From Conoideocrella luteorostrata (taxonomy: Eukaryota; Ascomycota; Sordariomycetes; Hypocreales; Clavicipitaceae): a stretch of DNA of 64,000 bases. Positions 15,739 through 64,000 of this stretch are shown here, piece after piece (positions within the stretch are counted from its first letter, which is position 1; every line of letters starts with the position of its first letter). The DNA lies in contig JASWJB010000075.1 in NCBI GenBank assembly GCA_032433595.1, positions 86,960 through 150,959 on the forward strand. Direction: 5' to 3'. A model generated the notes under the pieces. That model was not told where the DNA came from. It saw nothing but the letters and a program-made list of their open reading frames with translations, and searched no databases. The position numbers were made by a program, and so were the translations under genes.

Positions 15739-17694
15739 CTACGGCCTTACTGCATGCAGCACTTGCGGCCAAGGAAATACCACCTCGGAGCGCGGACATT
15801 CGTCGAAGAAGCAAATACCAAGCAGCCAACGGCGTACATGGAGCTGCGGCAAACCACTGCGTCCCGGACGTCCATTGAAATCAACTTGCAACGAGACGTG
15901 GCGGTCAATGTCATTAGCATCATGCCCATACGAACCCGGATCACCTTGTCGCGCGGCTGTAAAGACATAATCCTCTGGTGCCTGGTCCGTCGTCTCGGCA
16001 CCAGCACCTGTCCAGATGAAGATGGCACGGTATGGCGACTGTTGCCTCTCGTTCCAAATACAACCCAGCCTCAGGTTCTGTCCCGCTCGGATTGTGGCTG
16101 CTATCCCAACGGCCATACGGTTGAGATACATTTCGGTAAAGGACGTGAACTCTCCCCCGGCTTTGGCATCGTAATCTAGATAATCATGAAGCCTCTCTGC
16201 AAGCGGGCGGTAGCCCCGGTCAGATAGATAAGAAACGAGCTTTAGTAGGGTCTTCCGTTCCTCTAGCGTTAGGTGGCCGCGCGGATCATCAATCCAAGGT
16301 AGTTTCGGCGAAAAGGTCGACGTTTTGATAACATGGCCCAATTTCCACAGGTGGCCCTTGGTTACTAGGCCGCAAGGTGTCAACATTACATCAGTTAACC
16401 GACAACCCTTATTAAACGTTAGCGGCCTGTTATCGTCTCCGGGGGCTGTGAAACCTCGAAACAGTAGTTTTTTCAAGAGTTCCGATGCCGTCAGCCCAGC
16501 TACTGAAGTCGTGTCATCGTTACTATTGTCTAGGATCTCGCCATTGATCAGACACATTGCCAAGGCCGATAGACTGAGACTTTGACCCAGCCGGCAGAGC
16601 GCTTCAGTGTCCAGCCGTACTGGGTACTGACAGCAGTTGGCGATAAGAGCGAGCCGGTCCCATGGTTTCAATAATCCCCGCATCTCGATATCCGCGATCA
16701 CCGTCGGTGTCATACAGCTTGACTTCGGCAGCATGGATGCATATCTTCCAGCCGCCCGGAGCACGGTATCAATCCGCTGCTGGTCGTCTGAACGCAAACA
16801 TCCTGCTGCAGCACGGATCGCAAGACACAGCTGAGTCGCTTGTGCGGAGAACTTGACGGACGGTATGCAAAGCTCGCCTGGTATTTCGCCAAATATCTGG
16901 TATTGCAGCTTCAGTAGCTCCAGTGAACGATTGTGGGTAATCAGCAGCCTCATCCGCGACCCGCCCCGGTAGTTCTCCTGGAATGTCCATGCACGCTCCC
17001 ACCACTTGTCGTGTGTGATATCCCCAAGCAGCCAGAGTGCCTTCTTCGCTTCGTGCATGCTAGTTGCTTCTGAAAGGCGAAATTCTCCGTCGCTTATTTT
17101 GCGAACGAGGTGGCCCGAGAGGATCTGCGCAAGGACGTGCAATTCAGATTCCACCGTCAGCTGCCAGCCCAGTAGTGCCACGGGGTGCTCACTGAGCTGG
17201 TACACAAGGTCCATTGCTTGCAAGGCATCGTATTTCTCGGCGCAATGGGGATGGCGACTGCAACTTTCGACCCCGCATGTATCTTGACGGATGCTATGAG
17301 CATCAATCCAAAGCATACGTATATTGACGCAGTCCATGTAATGACGTATGCGATCAAGGACACAATTCCGAACCGGTGACGGCTGGAAACGATTGTCATC
17401 CCAATTTTGCACGGAATACAACCCAGGTAGTGGGTCTTCATACTTGGAGGGCTCCCAGGTGTAGGAGAGCGCGACGTACTGTCGTTCGTAGAAGGCATTG
17501 ATTGACTTACGATATAATTCAACGCCACTCGGCCTCTTCGGCCTCAGACAATGCAGCTTTGTGATAAAATAGCGAAATTTGGCGTGCTCCCTCTGGTTCG
17601 ACTCGCTGCCTATGCTAACGAGCTGCGAGATAATGGAGGCGCGATGGCGCAGCCTGAGCTGGAGAAGTGACTGATCCCTGTCATCGGTATCCAT
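15739..17694 (-). CDS. HET-domain heterokaryon incompatibility protein 1
   Basis: This is a single-exon protein of about 651 residues with a HET domain near the N-terminus. Visible HET words are Y-V-A-L-S-Y-T-W-E, L-W-I-D-A-H-S-I-R-Q-D and W-W-E-R-A-W-T-F-Q-E. The C-terminus ends with H-D-A-N-D-I-D-R-H-V-S-L and V-V-F-P-W-P. The frame is open up to 17751, but I place the start at Met 17694. There the protein aligns from its first residues (M-D-T-D-D-R-D) with the paralogue at 50484 (M-D-N-N-S-N-D). HET proteins trigger cell death when incompatible strains fuse; the specific partner here is unknown. It lies 33 kb from its paralogue on the opposite strand. Confidence 0.88.
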   Translation of the reverse strand: MDTDDRDQSLLQLRLRHRASIISQLVSIGSESNQREHAKFRYFITKLHCLRPKRPSGVELYRKSINAFYERQYVALSYTWEPSKYEDPLPGLYSVQNWDDNRFQPSPVRNCVLDRIRHYMDCVNIRMLWIDAHSIRQDTCGVESCSRHPHCAEKYDALQAMDLVYQLSEHPVALLGWQLTVESELHVLAQILSGHLVRKISDGEFRLSEATSMHEAKKALWLLGDITHDKWWERAWTFQENYRGGSRMRLLITHNRSLELLKLQYQIFGEIPGELCIPSVKFSAQATQLCLAIRAAAGCLRSDDQQRIDTVLRAAGRYASMLPKSSCMTPTVIADIEMRGLLKPWDRLALIANCCQYPVRLDTEALCRLGQSLSLSALAMCLINGEILDNSNDDTTSVAGLTASELLKKLLFRGFTAPGDDNRPLTFNKGCRLTDVMLTPCGLVTKGHLWKLGHVIKTSTFSPKLPWIDDPRGHLTLEERKTLLKLVSYLSDRGYRPLAERLHDYLDYDAKAGGEFTSFTEMYLNRMAVGIAATIRAGQNLRLGCIWNERQQSPYRAIFIWTGAGAETTDQAPEDYVFTAARQGDPGSYGHDANDIDRHVSLQVDFNGRPGRSGLPQLHVRRWLLGICFFDECPRSEVVFPWPQVLHAVRP

Positions 17695-17751
17695 CACTGC
17701 AGTACATTCCGTATGGCGATGGCTTGGCTTTGACACCCAGGCTGTACTCAT

Positions 17752-20331
17752 GATAAGTCCGGCTGACTAGAAGCGGCTAAACAGTTTTCAGCATTCAATT
17801 ACAGTCGCTCAGACATGAGACAAGGTCGTAGTATCCACGATCGGCTTTGAGGCTTTTCGTGGTGCTGAACTAGAAAGCTAATCTCGACGCTTGGACAATT
17901 GCGGGGTGAGAAAGGAACAGGCCAGTCCTCTTGCAGCCCGCCAGCTAGGGTCGTAACACGCGGACTCGGGGAATTAATCACACAAGAAACTACTCCGTAT
18001 AGCACAATAGGAAGAAAGCAACCCAGAGCTAGAAATAGAGAACATTAACGTAAGGGCCATTATGAGGCATAGACACAACTAGCGCTTCGTATGTAACATA
18101 AGTAGATAGTTGCCCTATTAGAGGGATCTCCACCGGGCGTAATAAATTGCGTGTGTGTATTGGTTTGTGAGGTTTACATAGCTAGATACACAACCCAAGC
18201 TCGACTTCTAGCACCTCTCCGATATTGTGCATACCAGAACAGGATTGACGTCGATACCCTAGCGTCTTGATATCGGTCCAGCATACGGAGTATTTCGCCG
18301 GCTTTATGTGACAATGCATGGGACTAAAATGCAAGCATGACGTGGTGTGTCGTATTCCGTCCTTTGCTTTATCAGCGTTGCTGCAGGCAACCGTAGCCAC
18401 CGCAGTCGGTTTGTCCCACCCTAACTTGTCCACCCTACTACTATGTACCAGCTCCAATCCTGGCGATCCCTAGCCCGTGAGCGCCTGGGAGGTGTCTGCT
18501 CCGCTGATTGGGGTCGGAGGACCATTGAGGGGGCAAGAGCCGGGTGGCGTGGTAAATCGTCGCGCTGCACTCAAGCACTGGAAACTCGACATTTAGCTGG
18601 GCTGGGCGGGTCAGAAGAGGGATGTTCGATTAATTGACTAGGTAAAGAGCCCACCCGTCTTGCCCAGCCTGGAGAATAAAAGGCTCCAAAGACTGTCTTT
18701 ACTGGCCAAATTCGACGATAGAATCGCCCTTGGGCGCTCTGGCTGATAGGATTTGTGTAACAACTACCACAGCAGTGGCGATAAGGATGGGGAATTTAAT
18801 GCAAAGGGACGCATCGCACTTCTTAATTGCCTGGCCTGAAGTGGTGGTAGATTATCTCCTAGATTCCGGTAAGGCACACCTCATGTATCTGTGGGGCCAG
18901 TTGACCAATAAGATCTAGTTAATGAAAGACACTTAATCTACCGCCTATTTTCTACGGAGTACAATTCCCATATTTACATAGAGCTACATCGTACTTCCTA
19001 GACTTTGGCAGGTTACGCGGGTCACTAGAAGTCCCCAGGAAAAAAATGGGGAAGTGGGTCTCTAGATACGTGAAGTGTGCCTTATCGAAATCTACGAGAT
19101 ACCAACCATGCAGACTGAAATCCAGGTGTTCAAGAAATAGAGAATAAGCTAGAATTGAAGTAGCTTTTACTGTTATTAGTAGCCTAGTGCCAGTTTTGCC
19201 TTCCAAACGACTGACAGTGACTGGAGCACTAAAGTTGCTGAGATGTGAAGTCGGCTACTCCACCGGACTAGGCCCATGTTTTACTCTTTGCTGCGGAATT
19301 GTAGGGCGTCTTTGAGCTGCAGGTTCGCAGTGAGTAAACTGATTGCCCGTCTTGGCACCAACGTCACCACCTTTCAAACACCAATTAGATGATAGTACCC
19401 AATCTACATTTCGTATTTCTTGATTTTACTTAACTATAAGTTTACATTTCTCCGTAGTTATGTGTATTCCCTTTTGTGTAAGAGCGTCCGATCTTAAGAT
19501 TGTGAATTACGTGGTGCACTGCGCGTAGATCGCGACCGAAATCAAACCACACAGCTCCCACAAGAGCTTCCATAGTCGATGCACCGGTCGTACGGGGAAC
19601 GTTACTATTTTTCTTGCATGGAGTTTTAATAAATGTTGCTAGTTTCCACTCTTGCTGGAGCCTTTGTAGATTTTTACTGGAAGCTTCAGCTGAGACTGTA
19701 TGCAGCGGATGTTCTTCATGGTTTCCGTTGTCCCAGACGTCCTAAGTGAGGCTGACGCGGACGGCTCCCATTAGTAGCGGATAAAGCTGAAGCCCCCGCG
19801 CTGAGAAGTGAAGTAGTTATGTACAGTGGATAACTAGTTAGTACAGTTCCCCCCAGGGGTGTCCACGCCGTCCGTAGGAAGTCCCACAGCGCTTCCAGTT
19901 GCAGCTGATTTTGGTCAACGATCGCATAACAGGAAAGCAGTCTCCCACATATGCAACAGACCACGAAGACAACGCCGACTAACCAAAGTCCGCCCAACAC
20001 CACTGAGAGTAACAAAAATACGTTGTACTCCGCATGTAGTGATCTAAAGGCAATTAGCTGAGTGCCAAAATTTCTCCGTCGTAAGCGTAGACTTAGTCGT
20101 GCGCCACTTTTCTTTGGGAGGGGTGGCAGGGGTGGTTGGGTGCCGACCCTGGTGGGGTTGGGTCCAGCCACAGCATTTCCGCCCAAGCAGCCTTTCGCTC
20201 CCTCCAAAACCATCTCATTGTCCGCCTAATCTCTTTTTCATTTGGGTCCAGTCTGGATCTAGCTCTCTAGTATACTTTAAGTGCACTTTTTTTACGGAGT
20301 AGTCGAAACCATATTTATTAGTCGTTTCAGA
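17752..20331. other. Gene-poor region with relic sequence
   Basis: Scattered open frames occur but none is convincing. The region contains the inverted duplication described at 18750-19210. The minus strand just above 19206 encodes N-F-S-A-P-V-T-V, which resembles N-F-N-A-P-V-T-V in the decayed gene at 53.9-55.7 kb, so part may be a relic of a related gene. The last 100 bp are the presumed promoter of the JmjC gene. Confidence 0.4.
18750..19210. repeat. Imperfect inverted duplication
   Basis: The sequence at about 18750-18905 and the reverse complement of about 19055-19210 are alike, best around GTGTGCCTTA. Both arms translate to similar peptides (D-S-G-K-A-H-L-M-Y-L against D-F-D-K-A-H-F-T-Y-L) in opposite directions. 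They look like two diverged copies of one gene fragment arranged tail to tail. Confidence 0.5.
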
Positions 20332-28257: not shown

Positions 28258-31200
28258 ATGTTGAGGAAACTAAGCCATGAAGACTACACTGTTGGCTGGA
28301 TTTGCCCACTAGAAGTTGAGCAGATTGCCGCCTTGCAGATGTTGGACGAACATCATGAGCGATTGCCTCAGCCCTCAGTCGATCATAATATATATAATCT
28401 TGGTAGCATTGATGGCCACAACGTGGTGATTGCAGGTTTACATCGAACCGGAAACAATCCTGCCGCTGTCGTTGCTACCCAGATGAGAAATACATTTCGC
28501 AGCCTGCGGTTTGGTTTGCTTGTTGGCATCGGTGGTGGTGTCCCAGTCAAAACGGACAACGGAATGATACGGCTAGGCCATGTTGTCGTTAGCAAGCCTA
28601 CGGGTGTACATTCTGGCGTCGTGCAATATGACCATGGAAAAGCCAAATCCGGTATCTTTGAGCGCACTGGGGCTCTTCAGCCACCGCCGGTAGTCTTGCT
28701 CAATGCTGCCCAGGACCTAGCCGCTAAATGAGCTGGATTACGCTAGGACCCCATTAGAGAGGCCATCAAAAGGATCAACACCGACATCCCTGGGCTCCGA
28801 AAATTCAAGCATCCCGGTGTGGGAAAAGACAAGCTCTACCATGCGAATTATGAACATATAGAACCAGGTGTGCTCTGCGACGAATGTCAATGTAACCCTA
28901 TGTGGATAGTGTCGCAACCTATCGATGACGGCGAAGAGCCATATATCATTGTTCACAGAGGAACAATTGCATCTGGGCAGTTGGTAATGAAAAGTCCTTC
29001 CATGAGGGATATGTATGCAACGGAGAATGATCTTTTGTGCTTTGAGACGGAAGCAGCAGGAGCTTTGGATGACTTTCCTTGTCTGGTAATTCGTGGAATT
29101 GCAGACTACTGCGACACACACAAGAATGATCAATGGCATGGGCATGCAGCTGCGGCTGCAGCAGCTTATGCTCGGCAGTTGTTTTTCCACATGCCAGTGA
29201 ATGAAGTGAAGAGGTATGCTCTAGCAACAAATATCTAAATATTTATTTGTTTATTTAACAATTATATAGATGTGCCCCGACTCAAAATAACTTGACACTG
29301 CACAATGTGACAGCGATGGGCCAGTTTCAAGTACATAACGGCGACGTCAACAACAACATCACTTTTAAACTGCAGCATCAGGCCGAATCTATTGGAATCA
29401 AGAACAAAGAAAAGGCATTACTATGGCTGTCTCCGTTGGAATTCGAAAATATCCACAATCAAATCCGCGACGATGCTGGCTTAGAAGATCGTGGAAACCA
29501 TGAGTCCGACGATAGCGATTATACTGGCAAATGGCTTTGGGATTCAACTCTCTTTATACAATGGCTGAACCAGGAGACTCGGGAACTATGGTATATCGGA
29601 ATGCGTAAGTCCAACAAAGCTTGTTCAAGAGTTCTATCTTCTGAGAATATAGCAGCCGGTGCCGGTAAAAGCACACTCGCGTGAGTTTATTGCTTGAAGC
29701 TTATATTTTCTACGATGAAGCTAATTTTAATATTTCAAAGATCGATTATTGTTGAACGAATGATGGAATTACGAACAAGGTTCAACCCAAGTGGACGACC
29801 CGGAAAAATTGCCTATGTCTATTTAAGACACGACAAGAACTACCTTGTCGATCAAATTCTCGGCAGCATTATAAAACAAGTAGTCAAGAGTGATAAGATT
29901 CTACCCAGATCTGTTACAGACCTATATACCGAATTTAATGGAATAGAGGCATCAAGGAAAAAAACTCGAAGGTTTGCAAGTATAATACACGAGATCTCAA
30001 TGGACGAAGCAATTTATATTGTCATTGACGCAGTTGATGAGGTCGAACGGGAACTAGCGAACGACTTAATAAATCTGCTTCGCCCGAAAGGGAAAGATTC
30101 AAGCTATATTTCCCTTTTAGTTACGTCCCGAATCTGGAGTGAATTCGAACATCTCTCGGAAGGATTCTCCTGCGCACTAATCAAAGCAAACAACAGAGAT
30201 CTAGATCTGTTTATTAACTACAAGTTCAGAAGTCACTCTAATTTACAGAGGCTTGAGGGAAACCACTCTATGATTAGGGACGAGGTGAAAAAGTTGATTG
30301 GATGGAAATGCCAGGAAATGTAGGCTGGAAATCACAATTCTTTTATTTAGGCATATTCATTTGGGTTGCTAACATTGCTTAGTTTCTTACTTGCAAAGCT
30401 GCAGGTGCAATCGCTCAAGCTCACGGATTCATCAAGATCTTTAAGCTATATCGATCTACAGAACAAACTCAACGAGTTGCTTCCAGCTGGTGTTGGTCTT
30501 GATCAGATGTACTCCAAAGTTTCGAACAGAATGATGGAGATAAAGGACAAGGACACAGATACACAGCGCGCGTATCAAATTTTGGCTTGGGTGGTATTAA
30601 GCCCACGGCAGCTATGCGTGGCCGAGCTACGCGAGTTTATGTCTTTTGATCCTATCATGAAAGAGTTCGGGGACCCCGCACACCAGAGCACCCAAGATGC
30701 GATAAGAGATATCTGTGACGGCCTCATCACATTCCACAACGGCAAAATATTCCTGGTGCACTACACGACTACGGTCTATTTCAGCCAGAACGCCGATAGG
30801 TTGTTTGGAAACTTCCACTCTCAGATTGCACTATCATGTGCTACTTACCTCCTTGCACAGGATATTGAACATACTGTGAATAACAACCTGGAACGTATTG
30901 ACGCTAGGCTACGACGCTTTCCATTGCTCATGTATGCTCTGGAGTACCTTGGGTATCACCTGCGCAAGCAAGTTGAAGGTTCAGTAACTGAAACTCAACA
31001 GAGGGTCATCTTACTCCTGGAAACAAACTCAAAAAGGGAATCCTTGTATCAGTATATTCGGGCTTTGGGCTTGTATCACCCCTCGAATCAGCTCAGAACC
31101 CCTTTCTTCTACCATGACGTAACCCATCGCTGGGATATGGATGACCATCGCTCTGGGAACTCTAGTCTGTCTGGTGAAAGCGGAGATGGTGAGGATTTCC

Positions 31201-33093
31201 CCACCACCGAGTACATTGACGAGTTTTTGGGCAATCTTATGGAGCATCTAAACCTTGATTCACAATGCCTCCAGGATGAAGAAGATGGTGCCGCAGTTTC
31301 AAATGGCAACGGGATGCATTCTAGTGATAGGGAAGCGGGAGATGAAGTTTACACTTCAACATCATCCGTGGAAGGACTTCAAACCACCATTGCAACAGTC
31401 CAGGATGTCATATCACCCCCCGCCGAAGCAAACCCTGAGCTCCCGTCCGAGCCCTCAAACATACAACTGCTAGCTCAGCTCGGCCGCCAGACAACCCCAA
31501 CTCATCTCGCGGCGTGGTACGGCTGCATCCCAATCCTAGAACATTTTCTTAAGAATAACAAGGATGTAAATACTACTGATGAATTCAATCAGCGGCCCAT
31601 AGAGGTTGCTTTGCAGCAAGGACATATCGATGCCGTGCGAGTTTGCGTTGACTATGGAGCACAAATCGACCTTACCTCTTCCGGTGGTCAACAGATTATG
31701 TTGTATATTTCGAGAAGGAAAGACGCAAAGAAGAGTCTCGTCCGTTCAATTATCCAGCAAAATCACGATCGTCTTGATTTCCTCCAACAAAGTGACTCGC
31801 ATATTGTGGATTATGCTCTTAAGCTTCCGATGTTTGTTGCGTGTATTGCACTTGTATGCGCTATGCATCTCAATACACCCCTGAACAGAATATGTCGCTA
31901 TATGCAGCATGGGGACAGGATAATGAGCCTCTATCGGCGATTTAACTCGGACAATATTCTTGCTGCGGTCGCGCGTGGAGATGCGTCGACCATCGCTCGC
32001 AAGATCACACAAGGCAAATGGAATGTTAAAGACAAGAGTTCTAGGCTTGGAATGATGTCAATCTTTGTTGCTGTGGAGTTTGGCGGCATAGATACCGTTA
32101 ATGCTTTAATCAATGGCGGTGTTGATGTTAACATCCAGGACTTTGACGGAAATACGCCTCTAATCAGAGCCTCATCGCGGGGCAATAAAGATATGGTTGA
32201 GGCACTTCTCAATAGGAATGCCGACGTTACATTGCGGAATAATAGTGGTCGCACAGCCTGGACAGTTAACCTAGAACCGGAAAATGAGAAAGGTACGTCT
32301 GTTCTTAATTCACATAAATATAGAATACCCCAATTAATTGAATGTAGTTTTAGATATTCTAGAAAACCACGGCGGCTCTAATCCGGATGCTTATAACAAA
32401 GGCGACCCTGTGCTCTACTGTCACGCTGCTGGTGGCAATCTTCCTTTGGTTCAATGGCTGCTTAACAAAGGGGTAAATCCGTCAAATCGTACTATTTATG
32501 GCTGGGCACCCCTTCATTGGGCTGCCTCCAATGGTCATATCGAATGCGTACAAGCGCTCTTGAGAAAAGGGGCCGAGCATTCGCCACTCTCTGATACTTC
32601 TTTAACGCCACTGGATCTAGCTATGCGCCAAGAGCGAACAGACATCATTCAGGTTCTACAAGAAGCAGGCGCAACAAGAGGCAAGGACTATTACGATGAC
32701 ATCTTCGACATCTTCACGCCAGTGGGGGCCTACTATGAGTGTTTCGATTCATTTTCGTATTTTTCAACCGAGGAAGAGGAAAGTTCTGGATCGGAGTTAT
32801 CTCAGATACTGAACGCAAATCTTGATGACGAAGATGTTATGTATGCTCAAGATGGGTTCGTTGCGGTGCTACTTAGACTTGAACAAAAAGTTTCCGTGCC
32901 AGCCGATTATAAGAAGAAGGTTATGGAATTCTTCTTTCGGGACATAGCTCAAGTTCTTCGCGACCTTGAATATTCTAGCAACGAACCGAATGAATTAATT
33001 GTTTCCAAGTCTGTATCGCAAAGATGGGATGCTATTGTGCAAGATTTAAAGCAGAAGAAGACTATATCGGACATTTTATATATAACTAATTAG
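28258..33093 (+). pseudogene. NP-NACHT-ankyrin (NLR-like) gene with two in-frame stops
   Basis: Six exons can be joined in phase: 28258-29213, 29270-29604, 29653-29680, 29741-30319, 30383-32292 and 32348-33093, 1,517 codons in all. Domains are a purine/uridine phosphorylase-like NP domain (words Y-T-V-G-W-I-C-P-L and G-L-L-V-G-I-G-G-G), a NACHT domain with P-loop G-A-G-K-S-T-L (split by introns around the tiny third exon) and Walker B-like Y-I-V-I-D-A-V-D-E, then ankyrin repeats. TGA at 28729-28731 and TAG at 28744-28746 interrupt the NP domain in an otherwise colinear frame. Both fit C-to-T changes (CGA, CAG). All splice sites remain intact, so inactivation is recent, or these are assembly errors. 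NLR-like proteins of this type act in fungal allorecognition. Confidence 0.8.
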
Positions 33094-47251: not shown

Positions 47252-49076
47252 TTAATTACTGGTCTCATGGCGGGCGACGACCTTCTGGTTGTCACGCAAT
47301 GACCGCGGCCCTAATACAGAGCGGGTATGTTTCCGCAAACTCGTGGTTCGCATGTAGTTGCCTAGGGGACCAAAACAGCCGTTCCCGGAAACGGCTTTGA
47401 AGGAACATTGATGGTAGACTACGAAGGCAGGTACTTTGAAATCCACCCTAGTATCGTGGCATTCGTCGAGGGCATCCAGAACGATCCAGACGGCTTCCAT
47501 CTGCTCTATCATACGTAAGAGAGTTTCGCAAAGCGATTCGCAGGATGGTTGTCGATATCCATTTTCGCAAGACAAGTGCAGAGAATCCAATTCTTTCGAC
47601 GAATCTCCACTTTTAGAGCAAAGCTGACCCAGCAGAGACCGCAGCATGCTGTCAAGGGTTTGCTTGTCTGTATGATTGAAGTCGAAGTAAAAATAGAGAA
47701 GTTGTTGATTAGGCGGCAATACTGTTGCGATATGCTCAATAATAATGGAGCTTAGAATCGTTTTCCCACAGCCAGGAATTCCGTTAAGCCACAAAAAGGA
47801 ATTCTGTCTTTCCTTCCACTTGGCAAAGGCATCAATGTTCAGGAACCAAAGGCCCGAGCCTTCCTGGCGTTGCTTCAGGGCGTTGTTGTAATTCGTTGAC
47901 GGATCCGGCGGTGACAACCAACGTTCTATCTTCCCGCCCCTCTGCTCCAGTCCGATGACCTCGATATCAGCCCGTGTCTGTTGAAGATTATCGCGAATTT
48001 CGTTCACTTAAACGAGTAAGTACTTAATAACAAGCTTCACGAGTCGCTGGACTAACCTGCGGAAAGGACTTCTTTTATCTTATTTTCGGCTTCCACCTGG
48101 TTTGGGATGATTCGACAAAGATGCTCTTTGGCATACACTGCAGCCGCCACAGCTGCGTAGGCCTGCCACTCTTTATTCTTGTGGGAGTCTGAGTAATCGC
48201 ATATTCCGCGAACAACGAGACAAGGAAAATGGTTCATTAGCCCTGCCGCCTCCATTTCAAAACATAACACGTTCTGCTGTTCTGCGAGCTTATCGCGAAC
48301 CGAGGCGTCCTTCATGAGCTGATTCCCTGACGCAATCAGACCATAGTGAACCGTAGGACTTTGGGGTCTTCATCGCTCGGGTCGAAGCAGCAAGTTCGAT
48401 GAGTCGACGCCATAGACCTCAACGCAACCGCTTTTTGTATCTGGAGGATGGACAAAGTCGCTGCGATACAGTCTATCGCTGCTCACGCGTGGCCGGCTCA
48501 GTTCCTCCCGCAGATCATCGTTCTGTTTATCAAGGATGCCTTTAATAGCTTTCTCAAGCTGTTGTTGATTCCTCTTGTACTGGGTCTTCAGGCCGTTCAC
48601 CGCCGTCAGTAGGACTGTCGGCGGCCGGTTCAGAAAGGCAGTCTCTCGAAATGCCTGGTCCTGGATCGTTTTGCCGAAATCGTACTGCCACACCCCACCC
48701 TTGCCATCGCGAGGAGTGCTAACCACAATGTCGCCTAAACGGACGTCATTACCGCGAGACGGCGCCCCGCCGCCAATGCCGACCATCAGGCCGATTCTGA
48801 CATTCGGGAAGCTCTGCAGCATATCTCTTGCGACGGTTGCCGTAGACGATGTGCCGTATTCGCCATTGGGCAAAATGGCGATAACGACGTAATGCTTTTT
48901 CGACCCAAGGTGTAATCGTTATTGTCATGTTTGGCTATATATTCTGGTCGGTCGTGTTCTTCGTCAAGACAGAGCTGCGCGGCCAGGTACTCGGTGCTTA
49001 AGGCGCAGATCCATCCTACGGTGTACTGGGCATTTGAGACGGAGTCGGTCGGCGGCTCGGATAGGTCAGATGCCAT
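47252..49076 (-). pseudogene. Truncated NP-NACHT (NLR-like) gene
   Basis: The N-terminus encodes an NP domain (Y-T-V-G-W-I-C-A-L, then G-L-M-V-G-I-G-G-G). It is broken by a one-base loss near 48905 after Y-T-L-G and by a TGA at 48370-48372 in a frame that continues in phase to 48052. An intron with GTTAGT donor and TTTAAG acceptor (about 48008-48053) joins to the NACHT part: G-I-P-G-C-G-K-T P-loop and V-W-I-V-L-D-A-L-D-E-C. Shortly after the Walker B motif the similarity ends, so the rest of NACHT and any ankyrin or WD repeats are gone. It differs from the gene at 28258 in its NACHT type. It is probably a dead relative. Confidence 0.75.
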
Positions 49077-49860
49077 CTTTGGCTACGAGATCAGTTGTCG
49101 CTTTCAATTTAGCTTAATGGAGGCGTATACCTTTGACCCGATCCACGGTTGTTTAATAATGTTGAAAGTCTTTATTTGCGTCAAGTTCACGGCGTATCGG
49201 GGGCTTTTCTTTCCAAGTTGACATTGGGTATCAAGAGGACCCTGTGAGGCTTGGCCGCAAGCGAGAAAAAAGTCAGGGCTGGCGACCGCACACAGCATTG
49301 GCGGGCGTAGTCTTGCGGCTCGTCATCTTGTAGGAGACAGCCATCGATTCCTCTGGGCTAACTAAGAGCCGGATTGTGCTCTCAGCCGGAACCGGGAAAC
49401 GAGGCTGCAATGTGAATGCCACTTAAGTTGGCCTGTTATGCTCACAGCGAGCGCTTGATCTGCGGAGACCGGCCCGCTCCGTGTTCAACGGCGGCACGAT
49501 ACTAGGCCGACTGGTGGAAAAAGTCTGAGCTCCCCTTAGGACTGCTACCACAAGTACGGTGACTCCTACTAGTTCTCTGTATTACATAGCAAATGGCGAA
49601 AGAGAGGAGGCCAGCGTAAACCAATCATTATCGGCGATGGAGCATGAGGTAGTTGACCGCACACCAGCTTCGATGTGAACCAGCGATTTATTGTAGGGAT
49701 TTACGTCCCAGCGCTACATTGCTGTCACACCATATTAATTGATAGCCTTGTTGGTAAAGTAGCTGATTTATTCTAGTTTAGATATCTGCATTGGTTGATC
49801 TTGTACAGAAAGTTTAGATAGCTCTTTATATAATAGATTCAGGTGTACGGTCGCAGAAGA
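49077..49860. other. No gene seen
   Basis: This region lies upstream of the NP-NACHT relic. I see no recognisable coding or repeat sequence. Confidence 0.4.
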
Positions 49861-50040: not shown

Positions 50041-50483
50041 TGTAAGCTTGTCAAATTCGGTCAATTCGTTGAATTTGGGTTCTGGCGGTTTTGCGGACCT
50101 TGGCCAATAGCTACTTCGCCTTGCACCTTGGGCAATTGGCGCAAAGACGGCAAAACCGTCCCCTATAGCAGACAGGCTGTGGAGCCATGCAGTTGGTGCT
50201 AAATGCCCTGGGCACATCTAAGAGTGCGACGCCTTCATGCCTGAGTCGGGCACACATGCATATGCGAGAGGTTGGGAACAGAGATATATAAACTGTTTTA
50301 TGGCAGTTTTTTTTTCTTTTTTTCTTTTTTTCTTGTTTGAGATACCTGCTCTGAACTGTGTCCTACGACAACCGTCCCCACCTAGAAAGCTCAGGCTGTC
50401 AACGTCTGACTGAGGCAAGCGACAGAGCAACAAAAAATACGAGCTCCAGTCGTGTATTTACCGCCGTTGCGTCATTTTACAGA

Positions 50484-52484
50484 ATGGACAACAACTCCAA
50501 CGACTCCACGAAACCTCTCCACCAAATCGCTCTAGATCACGGCAAATCAATCATTTCCCTTCTACTCGACATCCAGAGCAGCAAACTCCAGCACCAAAAG
50601 CTCCTCAGTTTTGTGAAGAATCTTGAATGTCTGCGCCTAGGCAGCGATCGACAGTATATGTCACGTCAGTCGATCAATGCTTTCGACAATCATGACTTCG
50701 TTGCTCTTTCATACACTTGGGAAGGGTCTAAGTATGAAGACCCGAGTACAGGCTGGTATCGAATCCAGACCCGAGACCGAGCTCGTTATCATCCGTCAAC
50801 AGTGAGAAATTGTATTCTCAACCGCGTCCGTAGATACATGAACAACGTTCGGATCGACCTATTGTGGATAGATAAGCATTGCATCCCACAACGAAGCTGT
50901 CGGATTATATGCGACCACCGAAGTTGTATCCGGAAGCAACACGGCTTACAGACTATGGACCTTGTCTACTCTCTAAGCAAGCACTCGGTCGCGCTACTCG
51001 CGAAGCCCATCAAAACTTCGGATGAGCTAGCACTCCTGGCAAAGGTTCTTAATGGCGAGTTCATCTCCCACAGAAAATGGGATCATGGCTTCTCCTTTGC
51101 CAAAGAGACTGACCGATCCGAAGTGGGGATGGCCGTTCTATTGCTCGGGGAAATAACCAGCGACCTATGGTGGAGACGAGGGTGGATTTTTCAGGAGAGT
51201 TACCGCGCAGGAAGAGCCTTGACCCTCCTTATCCCTCACTACGCCGCCCTAGAAGGGCAGAAGAGATCTTATGGCGTCGACGTTTTCGGCACAGTGAACA
51301 GAGAATTGTGTATCAATGCGGTTGAGTTTTCGTACGAAGCAACTCGTATTTGCATGGCTTTTAAGACTGCCAAGGACGTGACACAAGAAGAAAGTGACGC
51401 GATCGACCAGGTTCTTATGACATCTGGCAGGTATAGTGTCCTTTTGGGAAAGCACGAATCTATGACTCCAATTATTGTGTCGGACATTGAGAAAAGGGAT
51501 ATCGAGTCTTACTGGGATCGACTCGCTATAGTGGCTAACTGCTGTCAGTACTCTGTGCGACTCGATATTCCGAGGTTAGTTCAAGAAGAACAGAGCGCAA
51601 GCCTCTCGATGTTAACCATGTGTCTTCTGAATGGGGAGATCCTCCGTAATGATGATGGTTGCCGTGGCTCGTTGCTACAGATGACGGTATCTGATCTTCT
51701 CCAGGCACAATCTTTCCGGGGATTTTATGCTCCAGCCGGCTCACGCAGCCTGTCATTCAACAAAAGATGCCGGTTTATTAACACCAGACTTACGCCTAAT
51801 GGCATATTTACGGTTGGCCACATCTGGAAACTCGATAAGACGATTCGTTCATGTGAATTACAAGGAGAATCATCATGGGTGGAGGAGCCCAATGGCAAGT
51901 TGAGCTTGCATGAGCGAAAGCGGTTAACACAACTGGCAAACAAATTCAGATCGCTCGAATATTCGCTTCTTGAGTACCAGTTAAGAGACTATTTAGAGCG
52001 AGACTCATGGATTTGTTCGGAGGATGCATCGGATCTAGAGACCTTCGTTGAAGTTTATATGCGCAGCATGGCTACAGAGCTCGTCAATGCGATTGATTGC
52101 GGAAGAGATATCAGGCTAGGCTTCCTTCCAGATCCATCTGGGAAACGATCTCCGTACAGAGCCATGTTTATATGGGATAATGAAATTGGTCGGAAGAAGG
52201 AAGGATACAAACGGAGGCGATTGCAGTCTCGGTCCAATGAGTCTTGCTTTGTTTTTACGTCTTCCCGTCCGGAAAGCCAACCCTCCGACAGGCACGATGC
52301 CAACGATCTGGACAGACATGTGTCATTAGTCGTGAGGCGTGAGGGTTCTGTGAGAGAAAAGGGGAGCGACGTGCCACGACTATACATAGATCGCTGGATT
52401 CTGGGGTTGTCTTTTTTCGAGGGGTGCGCAAGAATACCGGTCGTTTTTCCATGGCCACCGGGTCTGGTTGAGCACGATTCTTGA
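50484..52484 (+). CDS. HET-domain heterokaryon incompatibility protein 2
   Basis: This single-exon protein of 666 residues is clearly paralogous to HET protein 1 along its entire length. Shared words include V-A-L-S-Y-T-W-E, L-L-W-I-D-K-H-C-I, D-L-W-W-R-R-G-W-I-F-Q-E, A-N-C-C-Q-Y, H-D-A-N-D-L-D-R-H-V-S-L and V-V-F-P-W-P. The frame is open to 50358, but alignment with the paralogue begins at Met 50484, so I use that start. The gene is intact, without RIP-type stops, unlike the NLR genes nearby. A cell-death role in allorecognition is inferred from the family. Confidence 0.88.
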   Translation: MDNNSNDSTKPLHQIALDHGKSIISLLLDIQSSKLQHQKLLSFVKNLECLRLGSDRQYMSRQSINAFDNHDFVALSYTWEGSKYEDPSTGWYRIQTRDRARYHPSTVRNCILNRVRRYMNNVRIDLLWIDKHCIPQRSCRIICDHRSCIRKQHGLQTMDLVYSLSKHSVALLAKPIKTSDELALLAKVLNGEFISHRKWDHGFSFAKETDRSEVGMAVLLLGEITSDLWWRRGWIFQESYRAGRALTLLIPHYAALEGQKRSYGVDVFGTVNRELCINAVEFSYEATRICMAFKTAKDVTQEESDAIDQVLMTSGRYSVLLGKHESMTPIIVSDIEKRDIESYWDRLAIVANCCQYSVRLDIPRLVQEEQSASLSMLTMCLLNGEILRNDDGCRGSLLQMTVSDLLQAQSFRGFYAPAGSRSLSFNKRCRFINTRLTPNGIFTVGHIWKLDKTIRSCELQGESSWVEEPNGKLSLHERKRLTQLANKFRSLEYSLLEYQLRDYLERDSWICSEDASDLETFVEVYMRSMATELVNAIDCGRDIRLGFLPDPSGKRSPYRAMFIWDNEIGRKKEGYKRRRLQSRSNESCFVFTSSRPESQPSDRHDANDLDRHVSLVVRREGSVREKGSDVPRLYIDRWILGLSFFEGCARIPVVFPWPPGLVEHDS

Positions 52485-56879: not shown

Positions 56880-58383
56880 TCAACGCTTCTCCGGCGGCGG
56901 TTGAGGTCCTCCATAATTCTGTGAGTAGGTTGTCAGCACAATTGTTTGTTCCTCTCACATAGGCCAACTTTTTCAGTACGCAGTACAAATCTTGTCGTTA
57001 CTAGCAGACATAAGAGGACTGGACGTACCACGGTCCCGACGCTCCCGCCAATGATACGGTTGGCGTCCTTAGTAGTGCCGACAACATTTCCCACCTGGAC
57101 ACCAAAATTTGGAGAGTTGTCGTACTTGGTCTCGCCCTGAGTTATGGTAATAGACTGTCACCACATGTTGATTGTCAGCGAAGTTCGAACAGAACGCGGA
57201 GCCAATGATTGCTACTCGGGAGTCAGGACTACAGACCTGTGCGTTTAACCCCCCCACTCCTCCTCCTCCTCCTTTGTTCTTCTCGATATCATTAACCCAC
57301 TCCTTCAGCTTCCCGACCACCATCTTGTAGTCGGACCCATGGTTGTCTTCAAACTTGGCCATCTTGACGTGGTTTGCCGGAATTGACAGCGCGTCCACGC
57401 CGAGCCACGTCGCAGACTCCCTGGGCACGACAAAGCCCGTCCGCTTGCTCATCGGGCGCTCCTCAAAAAAGCAGGCCACCTCCAAATGAGGCTGGTCCCG
57501 CGAGCGGTCCCTTGCCTTGAGAAACTTGGCAAATGTCTCACAGATCTCTGTTAGCTTTTTGGAGCGGACCTCGAGATCCTTGACGTTGAGGCGCTGTGTC
57601 GGAATGATGTAGTCCAGGATGGCCGTGGCGATTACAGCATACTTTGCCTTGGACGACCCTAGAAACGGCGTTCCGAGGAAGAGGGTGCCGATGGTGTGGT
57701 CGGCAATGGTTTTTTTCTGATCCCGACAGAGCGCGTTGGCGACCACGAGGCCTCCCATGCTGTGAGCTACAAAGATAATGGGCCGGTTCTGTTAAGACCC
57801 GTTGTCAACGACTCAATGCAAGTTCGGGTGATTGGGCTGCGACTGACCAAATCCTCGTCACCGCGCAGCTGCCTGAGCGACTCAAGGAGCGCTGTTGAGT
57901 AATCATCGATGGTCAACGTCGGCGAAATCGTTTTGGAGCTCTCTGGGTAGAATTTGGCAATGTCAGCGTTATAGCCGAATGATAGAATCCGTGCTGTAGG
58001 GCAATCTGTAGGGAGAAGCTCTCGGTCTCCCGGCCAGAATGTCGTATCATCCAAGTCCTTGTCTCTCCAGGTCCCTGCGTTTGCAGTTTCTTGTCAGATC
58101 ACCGTCTGCTAACAACGGCACTATTGTGGAGAAGCAGATATATAAACCAGAAAGACCTAGGACTTACAGGTATCAATTCTATCGCCCCCGAGGCCATGAA
58201 CAAAGACAATGCTGTAGGAGTCCAATCATTAGTGAACAGAACAGGGTACGTTGCTGCCGTTCGCAGAAGGAAAAGTCCGTCATGTGCATACTCGACTTCG
58301 GTTTTCCCACCCTCGGGTTGATAGAGAGGATCCCCAAGCCCTGTCTTATCGGGCTTCTTGCCGGATTCACTTTTACCAGGCAT
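56880..58383 (-). CDS. SesB-like lipase/hydrolase with C-terminal amyloid-like motif
   Basis: Six exons join in phase: 58383-58292, 58211-58168, 58074-57848, 57788-57237, 57154-57029 and 56918-56880, giving 359 residues. The alpha/beta-hydrolase core shows I-V-F-V-H-G-L-G-G (33-40), nucleophile Ser 131 in A-H-S-M-G-G, and a candidate catalytic His 261 in P-A-N-H-V. After a glycine-rich linker, exon 5 (42 codons on its own) encodes Q-G at 311, Y 316, N 321, G-V-Q at 323-325, G-N at 327 and I-I-G at 339. Intron skipping would replace the motif with an unrelated tail. SesB proteins are fungal cell-death effectors activated through such motifs by a neighbouring receptor. The matching motif is in the divergent gene at 59209. 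Confidence 0.82.
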
Positions 58384-59208
58384 AATAGCTGCTTTCATCC
58401 AAGTATCGTTGCTATAATATTGAGGAAGAAAGTTGTTGAACCGTAGCCGATGTTTGCTTGCATTTACAAGCTTGCTCTCTGATAGGGATAAGTAGAAGCC
58501 TAGAATCAAGTTCACGTATCTGAAGCAGTGAGAGGGGCTTGCGTTCACTTCAGTTCTCATTTGAGCTGACAATAAGGGCCCAAGAGCCGCATTTTCCGCT
58601 GCGTAAGCGGACCATGCCAGGCATATTCCTCGGAAATCTGTCAGCAGTGGTCATGGCACCTTTAATCCCTCACGCACGCTCTCCGGGATTGAAAGAGGGG
58701 AGTATTGGGACTTACAACGGTAGTGTGGCATCCCAGAAACTGCTATTCGCTGACAACTTGCGCAGTACTTTTCAGCTCACCATATCCCGTCATAACTCAC
58801 CTAATATGCCCCCAAGATAAGCCGCCAAATGCAACCTTGATGCATCTGTGGCGCTCAGCTGGCTCTTCTATTGGTTGAGACTCGCAGCGGCAATTTTTTC
58901 AACGGAACGACGAAGTGATGCACACTGCATGTGCTACCATGCCTGCCTGGCTTATCCTGGTCGTTTCAACGATGAGGCTGCGAACGCTTGCCAATGCTGC
59001 AGTTTAGCTGAAATACCGTGCTACCGCACTTTATTTATTGATTCCGCCTATCTTGAAGGAATGAAGCTGTTCCGGGTCTGAAGATACTGTGATTACTGGT
59101 TGAACCAGGTTGAAATAATCGGCTTTTGAACAATGAATCAGACCAACGCAAAAAACACTATGAAAGAACCCTAGGACTTTACATAATGCTCTTAAATACA
59201 ATGTCAAA
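58384..59208. promoter_or_regulatory. Bidirectional promoter region of the SesB-like gene and its partner
   Basis: These 825 bp separate two divergent start codons. I see no gene in them. A shared promoter would fit genes whose products work together, but I recognise no specific element. Confidence 0.45.
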
Positions 59209-62200
59209 ATGCAACCAGCAGGAGATCCACGCACTACTCCTCCGCAAACTCCGGATCCTGACAATGGCAAAAGCTGGCAAGGCGATGGAGGACCATCTGT
59301 TGCACAGGGAGACGTAAATTACAAGGATGCTACGAACCACGGCGTGCAAACCGGGAACATATTTGGCTACAATCTCATCATTGGTAGGTGCATGTGTCGT
59401 GAAAAAAAAAAAGCCAGAGACCTACAGTCGCTGCGGCTTCGCGTTGTTTAGACCCGATCTAATCTCATCGTAAACTGTTAGGGAAAATCAATGTCGCACT
59501 GGCTTCAGCAAATGATCTGACGCATAAAATCCAAGACTTCGCGTCCAGCGTCGAGAAGGTCAGTCTGAGGCTCAGATCGGTGGGGGAGAAGGTCGGCGCA
59601 ACCGCGAACGTGATGAACACCATCAACGATTTAGTGGTGAAGCAAGCCAGAAGGGAAAATATTGGGGAGAAGGAAGTAACAAAAGAAGCAAAACTAGCCG
59701 AGGTGAGAAACCGAGATTGGGGCCAAGGAAAGGGAAAAGAGCCCGAGTCGGAAGTATTGAACAGGAGATGCTTCAAGAACCTGATGGAGGCCATTAAAGG
59801 CGCGAACCGCCTCTTTAGCGACATCTTCAAGAAGATTGAGGACGCTAGCGACACGCTCATCCGTCCCCAGGTGTTGGATCGAGGAGGCCCCCAGCCGGGC
59901 CCGGAGATTACAGGGGAGCAAGACGAAAAAGTAACACTAGACGAAGCCGACAAGGAGCGTATCCTCCTGACGGAGAGAGACATTGGATACATGGAGACGG
60001 ATATCGAGAGCCGCAAGACGGAATTAAACATGATGTTTTTTGTCTTTGAGTTCGTCGTGTGAGTAATATTCTCACACCCCATCCCCCTGCTACTTTGAAC
60101 CTTGTGCCATTTACTTGAGTTTGATATATTACCGATATTAATACGATGTCTTTGCTGTCCAGAAATGATGGACTGAACGAGAAGGCGGACGAGAGACGAA
60201 GGATTGTGGAGCGAAATGTGGCGGACTGCTGGAGACTCTTGAAAGAACTGGCAAATCGTCTCCTGTACGGAGGTGGCGGCGGCCTTCAACCTAGACCCGA
60301 CCATGTCGATCCGGCACATCGCCCACGCAGGCCCGGGCCGCTGCCGGATATTCGGCCGTTACAATTTCCCGATCTCTCTCGCCTCACATCTCTCTACATG
60401 GGCTGGGTTATCCGTAAAGGCCCGGTGCCAGACAACCCTGCTGTCGGACTTGAACGCTCACAACAAAATTCCTGGGCGAGTGCCGTAATCATCAGGCTGG
60501 CCTTGTCAACCGAAGAGCTATTTCTCAAAGTTTTGGCCCAAATCACGCAAAGAGCCAGGCTCGGACGGACACTACAGGATGACTGCGCAGCGATACTGAA
60601 AACAACCAGCCAGAAGCTAGTTGTTGATCGGCTGCTAAGAGATCAAAATCAAAATTTGCAGCAGTTCCATTCGCAGTTAGAGTGGACTTTGGGAGGCCTA
60701 GAGCTCCAGCCGAGCCATCTGACGACTGGGTCCAGATCGAAGAGCAGGGGGAGGAAGGAGAGGGGAAAGAAAAAGGAAAAGAAAAAGAAAAAGCGAGGTG
60801 CTCCAGAAGACGGGAACAGAGAGATGACTTCGATAGAGATTATATTGAAGTCTCAACAAAGAGCTCCCTGGTTATCGTCATCATCGCTACCTTTTCCCCA
60901 TGGTCCAGGAGGCATCTATGGTCCGGGAGCTATCAACGGCCTAGCGGGCATGAACGGCCTAGGAGGTATCAATGTCCCAGGAGGTATCGGTCATCCAGGA
61001 GGTATTGGTGGCCCAGGCGGTGTCAATGGCCCAGGAGGCATCAACGTCCCAGGAGATATCAACGGACCCGGAGGCATCAACGGACCAGGACCACGGGCTA
61101 AAACCCGCAATGAAGGAACACCACGACAGAGACAGAATTCTGAACAGGAGTTCGCACGTTCATCACCCAACACCTCTGACCGTTCTCTTTCTCGCCCACA
61201 ACTGAAACCTAGACTAAAACAACACAGGTCGATCCTCGTTACACGCGAACCCCAGTTCGTTTTTGTAAAGGAAGGAGGCAAAAAGAAGGGCGAAAAAGCT
61301 GATAAAACCAAGTCTCGAAAGAAGTACCGAGAACAAGTTTACATAGAGCTTCGTCGCCCCGGGCGCTACCGACGAAGGAGTTCGAGCCCTGATAATGTTT
61401 CTCCCGATCCATTGGCGTCATTCATTCCAGATGTCCTTTACCCCCCTCCACGCCATCCTCCGCCGCCGCCGCCAGTTTCACAATCACAACCGCTACCACA
61501 AATGCCACCGCCATCAGCATCATTTGTTCCGGGCGCCCCGTACCCCCCTCCACGTCCTCCTCCACCGCCGCCGGCGGTTTCACAATCACAACCGCTACCG
61601 CAAATGCCACCGCCACCGGGATATCGGCCGCGGGTCCATATCCATGTTGGCACGCTGCAGAAAGAACGCGAACGTCAACGAGAGGAGAAGCAGGTCATAG
61701 AGGAGCTGTTTGACGATTTCGAAGAGCTTTATGGCAGGATAGGCAAGAGGAAGAGCGCAAGACTAAGTAGAATGTCCGAGCTGAACGAGTCCCGCAGCCA
61801 GAAGCCACATAGTCGGACGGCCGCCGGCCCCAGTTCCGCAGCAAAGTTCAGCTCGGATTCAGACTTGTATCCGGACACTGCGACCAGTAGGAAGCTTATG
61901 AGACAAGTGGAGAAGACAAGCCAGATCAAAATGAGCCAGGAGCAGAAATACATGGAGAAGACGAAGGAAGATATCATGATGGCGCGATCGGCTTCTCATC
62001 TACGCCCCCCTTCTCCCATCCCCCCGTTATGGATGCAGACTAAAAGTCGTGCAAGCGAGCCGTACGTAACCATAAGCCACCCAGACGAACGATACAGAAG
62101 TACCACACGCCATCCAAGCGAGCCAGATAGAAGCGCCATACGTCATACGAGTGAACGATACGTAAACATGGCTCATCCAAGAGACCTAAATATAAACATA

Positions 62201-62368
62201 ACACCAATCCCTCGCGCGCGCGAGCAACGCTTTGAGAGACCATCGTCATCGTATGTAGCTAGTCGAGACCGACGAAGGGAAGAAGCAGGGGATTACCGCA
62301 GCCGCCAAGCCCGGGTGGAAGACCTGTCGGAATATGACGATGATAGCGGAGGGGAAGACTGGGAATAG
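59209..62368 (+). CDS. Large helical, Pro-rich protein with N-terminal amyloid-like motif
   Basis: Exons 59209-59383, 59482-60058 and 60163-62368 join in phase to 985 residues. Residues 33-59 read Q-G-D-V-N-Y, then N-H-G-V-Q-T-G-N, then N-L-I-I-G, matching the C-terminal motif of the divergent SesB-like lipase. Residues 60-330 are predominantly helical and charged, similar in plan to the fungal STAND N-terminal domain. A Lys-rich block, a collagen-like G-P-G-G-I-N repeat (60900-61095), two Pro-rich repeats (around 61440-61620) and an acidic C-terminus (S-E-Y-D-D-D-S-G-G-E-D) follow. There is no NACHT, NB-ARC or repeat sensor. It may be an adaptor, scaffold or receptor for the lipase. Confidence 0.75.
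60900..61095. repeat. Collagen-like coding repeats
   Basis: Units of 15-18 bp such as GGCCCAGGAGGTATC repeat about twelve times and encode G-P-G-G-I/V-N/G. Unit sizes are multiples of three, so other frames also stay open. Confidence 0.8.
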
Positions 62369-63600: not shown

Positions 63601-64000
63601 CTCGCCCACGACTGGCGGCTCCATGCAAATCATGCTTTCTTGCGTCATACCCGGCCTCCGACAGAACTTTACATGGTAAATTCACATGATCGTAAATCGT
63701 CGTTCCAACAGATGCCCCCGGATCCCGACAGATTCTGCAAGTGCCTCTGCAGCGGGAAGCTAACATTTGGGGTAGACGCGCAGCCTGATGATGGAACGCC
63801 AAATGGGCCAGCTAAAAATCTCGCATCCTTCAATTTCTTCCTGGCACTCAACTTTCACTCCATCAAGTGTCTCCCCCTCTCACCTTCAACATTGTTTTCT
63901 TGCCAATTTTAAATAGCGGGATACCTCTCATTCAAACCCAACACTCGACCTGCGCAATTCTTAGCCATCCTTTGCAGGGCTTTGACTGAGATTCTTCCCG
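63601..64000. other. Window end, no intact gene
   Basis: Only shadow frames are visible. Part may be the unreadable upstream half of the TAP-like relic. Confidence 0.35.

Follow-up and report, generated by a model that had tools for sequence, protein, structure and literature searches.

Two divergent neighbouring genes of Conoideocrella luteorostrata, a scale-insect pathogen of the Clavicipitaceae, encode a SesB-like lipase and a non-NLR protein, and the two proteins share a short glycine/asparagine-rich motif, located C-terminally in the lipase and N-terminally in its neighbour (hereafter the partner). We lean towards the view that the two genes act together as a single functional module in the manner of fungal amyloid signalling, in which the motif is new and its N-terminal bearer is not an NLR, and the recurrence of both motif and pairing in other fungi suggests a new variant of this type of signalling. 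In the described fungal amyloid-signalling systems the N-terminal motif is carried by an NLR (PMC3321046; PMC5485727; here and below, published systems are described from the available portions of the cited papers), and lipases of the SesB type that bear a C-terminal motif are known to belong to such systems (PMC5485727).

The window, i.e. the whole stretch of 64,000 nucleotides that was analysed, corresponds to C75:86960-150959 in a genome of 46.4 Mb and 620 contigs and reaches the contig end, which lies 1.6 kb beyond the partner gene at window position 64000. The lipase gene is located on the minus strand and its model comprises six exons encoding 359 amino acids. Exon 1 (58292..58383, start codon at 58383), exon 2 (58168..58211) and exon 3 (57848..58074) are followed by exon 4 (57237..57788), which encodes the HSMGG serine-hydrolase elbow (S131) and the invariant H261 and ends in a Gly-rich linker. 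The shared motif (57044..57139, QGETKY to RIIGG, with the 21-residue core at 57077-57139) is carried by exon 5 (57029..57154), which has 42 codons or 126 nt and is symmetrical (phase 0/0), and exon 6 with the stop codon spans 56880..56918. Between the start codons lies a divergent region of 825 bp (58384..59208) that might serve as a shared promoter. The partner model, on the plus strand, has three exons encoding 985 amino acids. Exon 1 (59209..59383) contains TPPQTP and the shared motif, the 21-residue core of which (59305..59367) extends from QGDVNY to GNIFG and is followed by NLIIG; exon 2 (59482..60058) encodes long helices, predicted in a low-confidence model, with no known family; and exon 3 (60163..62368) encodes a conserved region at about residues 308-430, followed by a tail rich in Pro, Gly and Arg, which is probably disordered but contains conserved islands. 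All seven introns of the two models are of the GT-AG type, and both translations are 100% identical over their full length to C. luteorostrata records, the lipase to QQS21_004899 (P0001) and the partner to QQS21_004900. The splicing of both genes is that predicted by gene models. The QQS21_ records probably derive from the draft genome of strain ARSEF 14590 (864 scaffolds), for which the available part of the genome paper names funannotate and protein evidence as the basis of the annotation and leaves RNA-seq unmentioned.

The motif pair stands out in a comparison of the two proteins. Among 327,135 ungapped pairs of lipase and partner 21-mers a single one, the motif pair, reaches ten identities, which is exactly the count given in the initial annotation, and the four pairs with nine identities correspond to the register of the motif pair in shifted form. 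When the lipase tail was shuffled, one in 20,000 sequences scored as well as the real tail. A motif profile was built from 33 lipase tails, the lipases of the window, of Metarhizium and of the two Xylariaceae with a same-contig partner being removed after joint alignment. This profile recognised lipase exon 5 with 41.0 bits and partner exon 1 with 32.0 bits (E 4.9e-8), the best of 10,000 shuffles reaching 16.7 bits, and its best 14 hits against 809 window ORFs included no ORF other than those of the two motif exons. On whole partner proteins it yielded 29.9 bits for P0125, 27.6 for P0121, 22.4 for P0122 and 13.1 for P0123, the last of which fails the shuffle test as it scores below the best shuffle. 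Comparison of 11 lipase with 4 partner motif pieces by hhalign, all pieces being hand-picked and hand-trimmed, resulted in a probability of 96.8 and an E-value of 2.3e-10 over 25 columns. As the stretch is short and biased in composition, an artefact, namely chance similarity of glycine/asparagine-rich tails, has to be considered; it is countered by the profile, shuffle and profile-profile tests and by the presence of the motif in both members of 3/3 readable pairs (see below), and we find it hardly credible.

The initial annotation had made its reading depend on conservation of the motif in homologues and on co-occurrence of the pair outside this locus, and both were found. Five of the nine partner records lack the N-terminal part; in all four that include it, from the window, Ilyonectria robusta and two Xylariaceae, the motif is N-terminal and follows TPPxTP. 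For the lipase, 37 sequences were picked by eye among 120 matches listed of 406, mostly for complete-looking tails, and in this selection motif columns -15, -2, +2 and +16 are G in 37, 32, 35 and 33 sequences, respectively, and column +7 is T in 27. In the 83 held-out lipases the motif was detected at 10 bits or more in 20 cases, compared with 0/83 for reversed sequences; among the 63 that fell below this value, many records are short or belong to more distant proteins. Going by organism names, the motif-bearing lipases presumably span several fungal orders.

Lipase and partner appear to be co-located on one contig in three further cases, as judged from the equal size of the contigs that carry them: Xylariaceae sp. 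FL1651 (1,991,425 bases), Xylariaceae sp. AK1471 (2,006,468 bases) and a contig of 41,429 bases. Both members carry the motif in all three pairs that are readable at both ends, the window's included; the pair on the 41,429-base contig misses both motif-bearing ends. Counting the window, linked pairs make up 4/120 of the lipases listed and 4/9 of the partner matches, of which there are at least nine (7991 candidates sharing most words were scored). Neither the Ilyonectria partner nor the Metarhizium lipase (90% identical) had a mate on its own contig among the matches listed.

The motifs of lipase and partner agree by lineage and not strictly by locus. The body of the window lipase is identical to that of the FL1651 lipase at 216/295 positions and to that of the AK1471 lipase at 214/295 (73%). 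Its tail scored 23 and 25 against the tails of these two lipases, with 371 and 247 of 3000 shuffles being as good (shuffle mean ~18), and 63 against its own partner and 74 against the Ilyonectria partner, with 0/3000 shuffles in each case. Using a softer gap penalty, the scores of the Xylariaceae orthologue tails rose to 34 and 33 (105 and 154 of 3000 shuffles). The FL1651 and AK1471 tails matched their own partners with scores of 50 and 71 (0/3000 each), the FL1651 tail scored higher, at 67, with the AK1471 partner, and the tail of a Penicillium brasilianum lipase reached 78 and 91 with the two Xylariaceae partners, above the values of those partners' own lipases (50 to 71). Similarly, the motif of the window partner is as near to that of the AK1471 partner (65) as to that of its own lipase (63). 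These cross-fits speak against strict locus specificity. At sigma loci the motifs of one cluster resemble each other more than those of orthologues do, and this has been argued to reflect co-evolution (PMC3321046).

At the DNA level the two motif exons are no more alike than codon shuffles (2161/5000 as good), and three of the ten identical motif residues share their codon between lipase and partner. The similarity being at codon-shuffle level, recent copying is unlikely, and recent gene conversion between the motif exons finds no support in these two results. The symmetrical 126-nt lipase exon could be shuffled, as would suit a motif of exon size that was copied once between the neighbours and merely persists by descent, having no function today. 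We nevertheless deem this reading very improbable, as the protein pattern has been kept while the DNA similarity has gone, the motif variants of lipase and partner agree by lineage, and lipases of what we take to be several fungal orders retain the motif.

QQS21_004899 is a SesB-like lipase, an alpha/beta hydrolase with a serine elbow. It matched the Pfam families Abhydrolase_6 (E 1.6e-7) and DUF676 (E 7.5e-6), both over cut-off, and contains HSMGG; G133, G134 and H261 are invariant in 37/37 selected lipases. The top match in Foldseek was a monoacylglycerol lipase with an E-value of 4.7e-8, but with a TM of only 0.40 and an rmsd of 9.7.

The partner gave no Pfam match in any of six records at E<=10 (the HMMER filters lose most matches above ~0.1), the P-loop pattern was absent from 9/9 records, four of which include the N-terminal part, and none of the NACHT/NB-ARC matches in the genome is located at the partner gene. 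This is in agreement with the earlier statement that the neighbour is not an NLR. The accompanying idea of a receptor that lost its NACHT found no support, since besides the lack of Pfam and P-loop matches the Ilyonectria and the two Xylariaceae partners show the same layout as the window partner. The neighbour had also been described as having a STAND-N-terminal-like helical domain; helices were indeed predicted by AlphaFold from six sequences, in a model that is unusable at a pLDDT of 33.6, whereas the likeness to a STAND N-terminus found no counterpart in any family match. The HeLo-like/PigL_N profile (PF17111), which hits 10 genome places at E<=0.01, none on C75, did not match the partner and gave the helical region no identity. 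PDB sequence searches with the partner and the motif returned nothing better than E 0.32. The TPPxTP near the partner N-terminus (59236-59253, plus strand), kept in 4/4 records that have this part, is possibly a phosphorylation site. Gly/Pro/Ile/Asn repeats in exon 3 (~60900-61092, plus strand) are unaligned in most of the other five partner records and probably represent a lineage-specific expansion.

We also compared the motif with established families. NACHT_sigma (PF17106) matched 12 places in the genome at E<=10, seven of them over cut-off, and Ses_B (PF17046) matched seven, one over cut-off; none of these places is on C75. Conversely, the new motif profile matched none of the seven NACHT_sigma loci and not the Ses_B locus, and Ses_B was without a match in the 37 lipases among the matches listed (25 of 30 families). 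As the profiles match elsewhere in the genome and not here, membership of the motif in sigma or Ses_B was rejected, which upholds the initial annotation in regarding the motif as not obviously identical to either. At E<=1, neither the two proteins nor their motif pieces matched a Pfam family for HET-s/HRAM. At two other places, C119:61781-62346 and C2:266109-273154, several NACHT_sigma matches lie close together, with two on opposite strands on C119, and these groups are candidates for ordinary sigma clusters.

NACHT and NB-ARC domains are frequent in this genome (82 and 51 matches, respectively, at E<=0.01, partly overlapping), the described SesB-type systems have an NLR (PMC3321046; PMC5485727), and the contig ends shortly after the partner gene. 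All this would suit a canonical three-gene cluster, in which both lipase and partner act downstream of a motif-bearing NLR encoded past the contig end or at another place in the genome, as in HELLP/SBP/PNT1 and SesA/SesB/HET-eN. However, the motif profile found nothing above 10.2 bits outside the window locus in 71 loci, including 36 of 116 NACHT/NB-ARC regions, and effectors in such clusters bear the motif at the C-terminus whereas that of the window partner is N-terminal. We therefore regard a three-gene cluster as unlikely, though by no means negligible. Single-sequence searches of the genome for the motif retrieved the lipase exon only, or nothing, and since they missed the partner exon as well they constitute a weak negative for an NLR bearer. 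The same applies to a chimeric query for N-terminal bearers, which retrieved only P0122 among 145 candidates and missed the window's own partner. In the window, the nearest NACHT piece (47252-48007, minus strand) is without the motif among the window ORFs.

Elsewhere in the window, two ORFs encode HET (heterokaryon incompatibility) domains (15742-17766, minus strand, E 7.2e-12; 50355-52481, plus strand, E 1.7e-12), and a NACHT/NPHP3_N piece (47252-49082, minus strand, E 5.8e-38) has no visible downstream repeat domain and is possibly truncated; together with the two HET-domain ORFs it gives the window the appearance of being rich in genes for incompatibility/immunity. By eye, the exons preceding the NACHT piece resemble a nucleoside-phosphorylase domain, and the single exon tested gave no such Pfam match. 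An ankyrin-repeat ORF (30351-32378, plus strand; Ank_5, E 1.2e-21, and a weak winged-helix match, E 0.08) may be the C-terminal portion of an NLR.

Fungal amyloid-signalling pairs are characterised by homologous motifs at the C-terminus of an effector and the N-terminus of its neighbour, and the window pair has exactly these, bearing out the layout of known effector-receptor pairs that was proposed for it at the outset. In the module that we favour, the N-terminal motif of the partner would sit ahead of a helical region with a possible role in oligomerisation. Activation or concentration of the partner by some cue might cause the motifs to assemble as a beta-arch amyloid seed, which would template the SesB-like lipase through its matching tail, so that the lipase is clustered or relocated. 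Clustering or relocation might switch the enzyme on, and membrane lipid would be attacked in a cell-death or incompatibility response. The amyloid fold, the templating, the direction of the signal, the activation of the lipase and the outcome are what we infer. We put at slightly less than an even chance that the pair represents an amyloid-type family with a motif of its own, in which the receptor-side N-terminal seed resides on a conserved P-loop-free scaffold of ~840-985 amino acids and the lipase is templated without a STAND ATPase. If true, this would add a motif family and show that proteins besides STAND ATPases can carry the seed. The potential of such a locus is illustrated by Nectria, where SesA/SesB govern a bistable state that has an infectious cytoplasmic determinant (PMC516043).

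The conservation data would also suit a non-amyloid docking element (folded beta-clip or short linear motif) joining partner scaffold and lipase by homotypic or heterotypic contacts, and the long Pro/Arg-rich tail of the partner with its conserved islands does resemble a scaffold. Yet a G/N-rich composition, a C-/N-terminal layout, a glycine linker and a lipase of the SesB type are all in keeping with the established design of amyloid signalling (PMC3321046, PMC5485727), and we consider plain docking quite unlikely.

One paper counts four fungal amyloid motif families (PMC12261475). In the literature searched, outside of which lay preprints, most subscription papers and supplements, neither the motif nor a lipase-paired non-NLR N-terminal bearer is described in the portions available. 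Compared with known systems, the window pair shares with PUASM and its PNP_UDP effectors that a newer fungal motif family was found by the same C-/N-terminal logic, but the published PUASM pattern, FxGxGxQxxGxGxF, differs from the window motif, and so does the effector (PMC9815663). HET-s/NWD2 (HRAM) likewise consists of adjacent genes, one with an N-terminal motif and the effector with a C-terminal one; the window pair, in contrast, has no Pfam HET-s family, a lipase in place of HeLo and no NACHT/WD receptor. With the PP system (PNT1 NLR, HELLP, SBP lipase) and mammalian RHIM it has in common the C-terminal motif on a lipase and the core GVQVG of the window lipase, which conforms to the PP core G-phi-Q-phi-G (PMC7885112), the partner's GVQTG doing so nearly. 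A conserved Q forms the centre of PP (PMC5485727; PMC7885112), whereas the central Q of the window motif family is kept in 5/37 lipases and 2/4 partners, and the resemblance to PP/RHIM rests on it; moreover, the conserved stretch is longer than ~20 residues, and no NLR or HeLo-like match was found for the window pair. The sigma system of Nectria haematococca (SesA/SesB/HET-eN) differs in that its profiles, Ses_B and NACHT_sigma, do not match the window pair and in that the N-terminal bearer in the window is not an NLR. In both, a SesB-type lipase carries a C-terminal G/N-rich motif that matches an N-terminal motif of its neighbour, and the motifs are more alike within the cluster than between orthologues, in the window pair by lineage.
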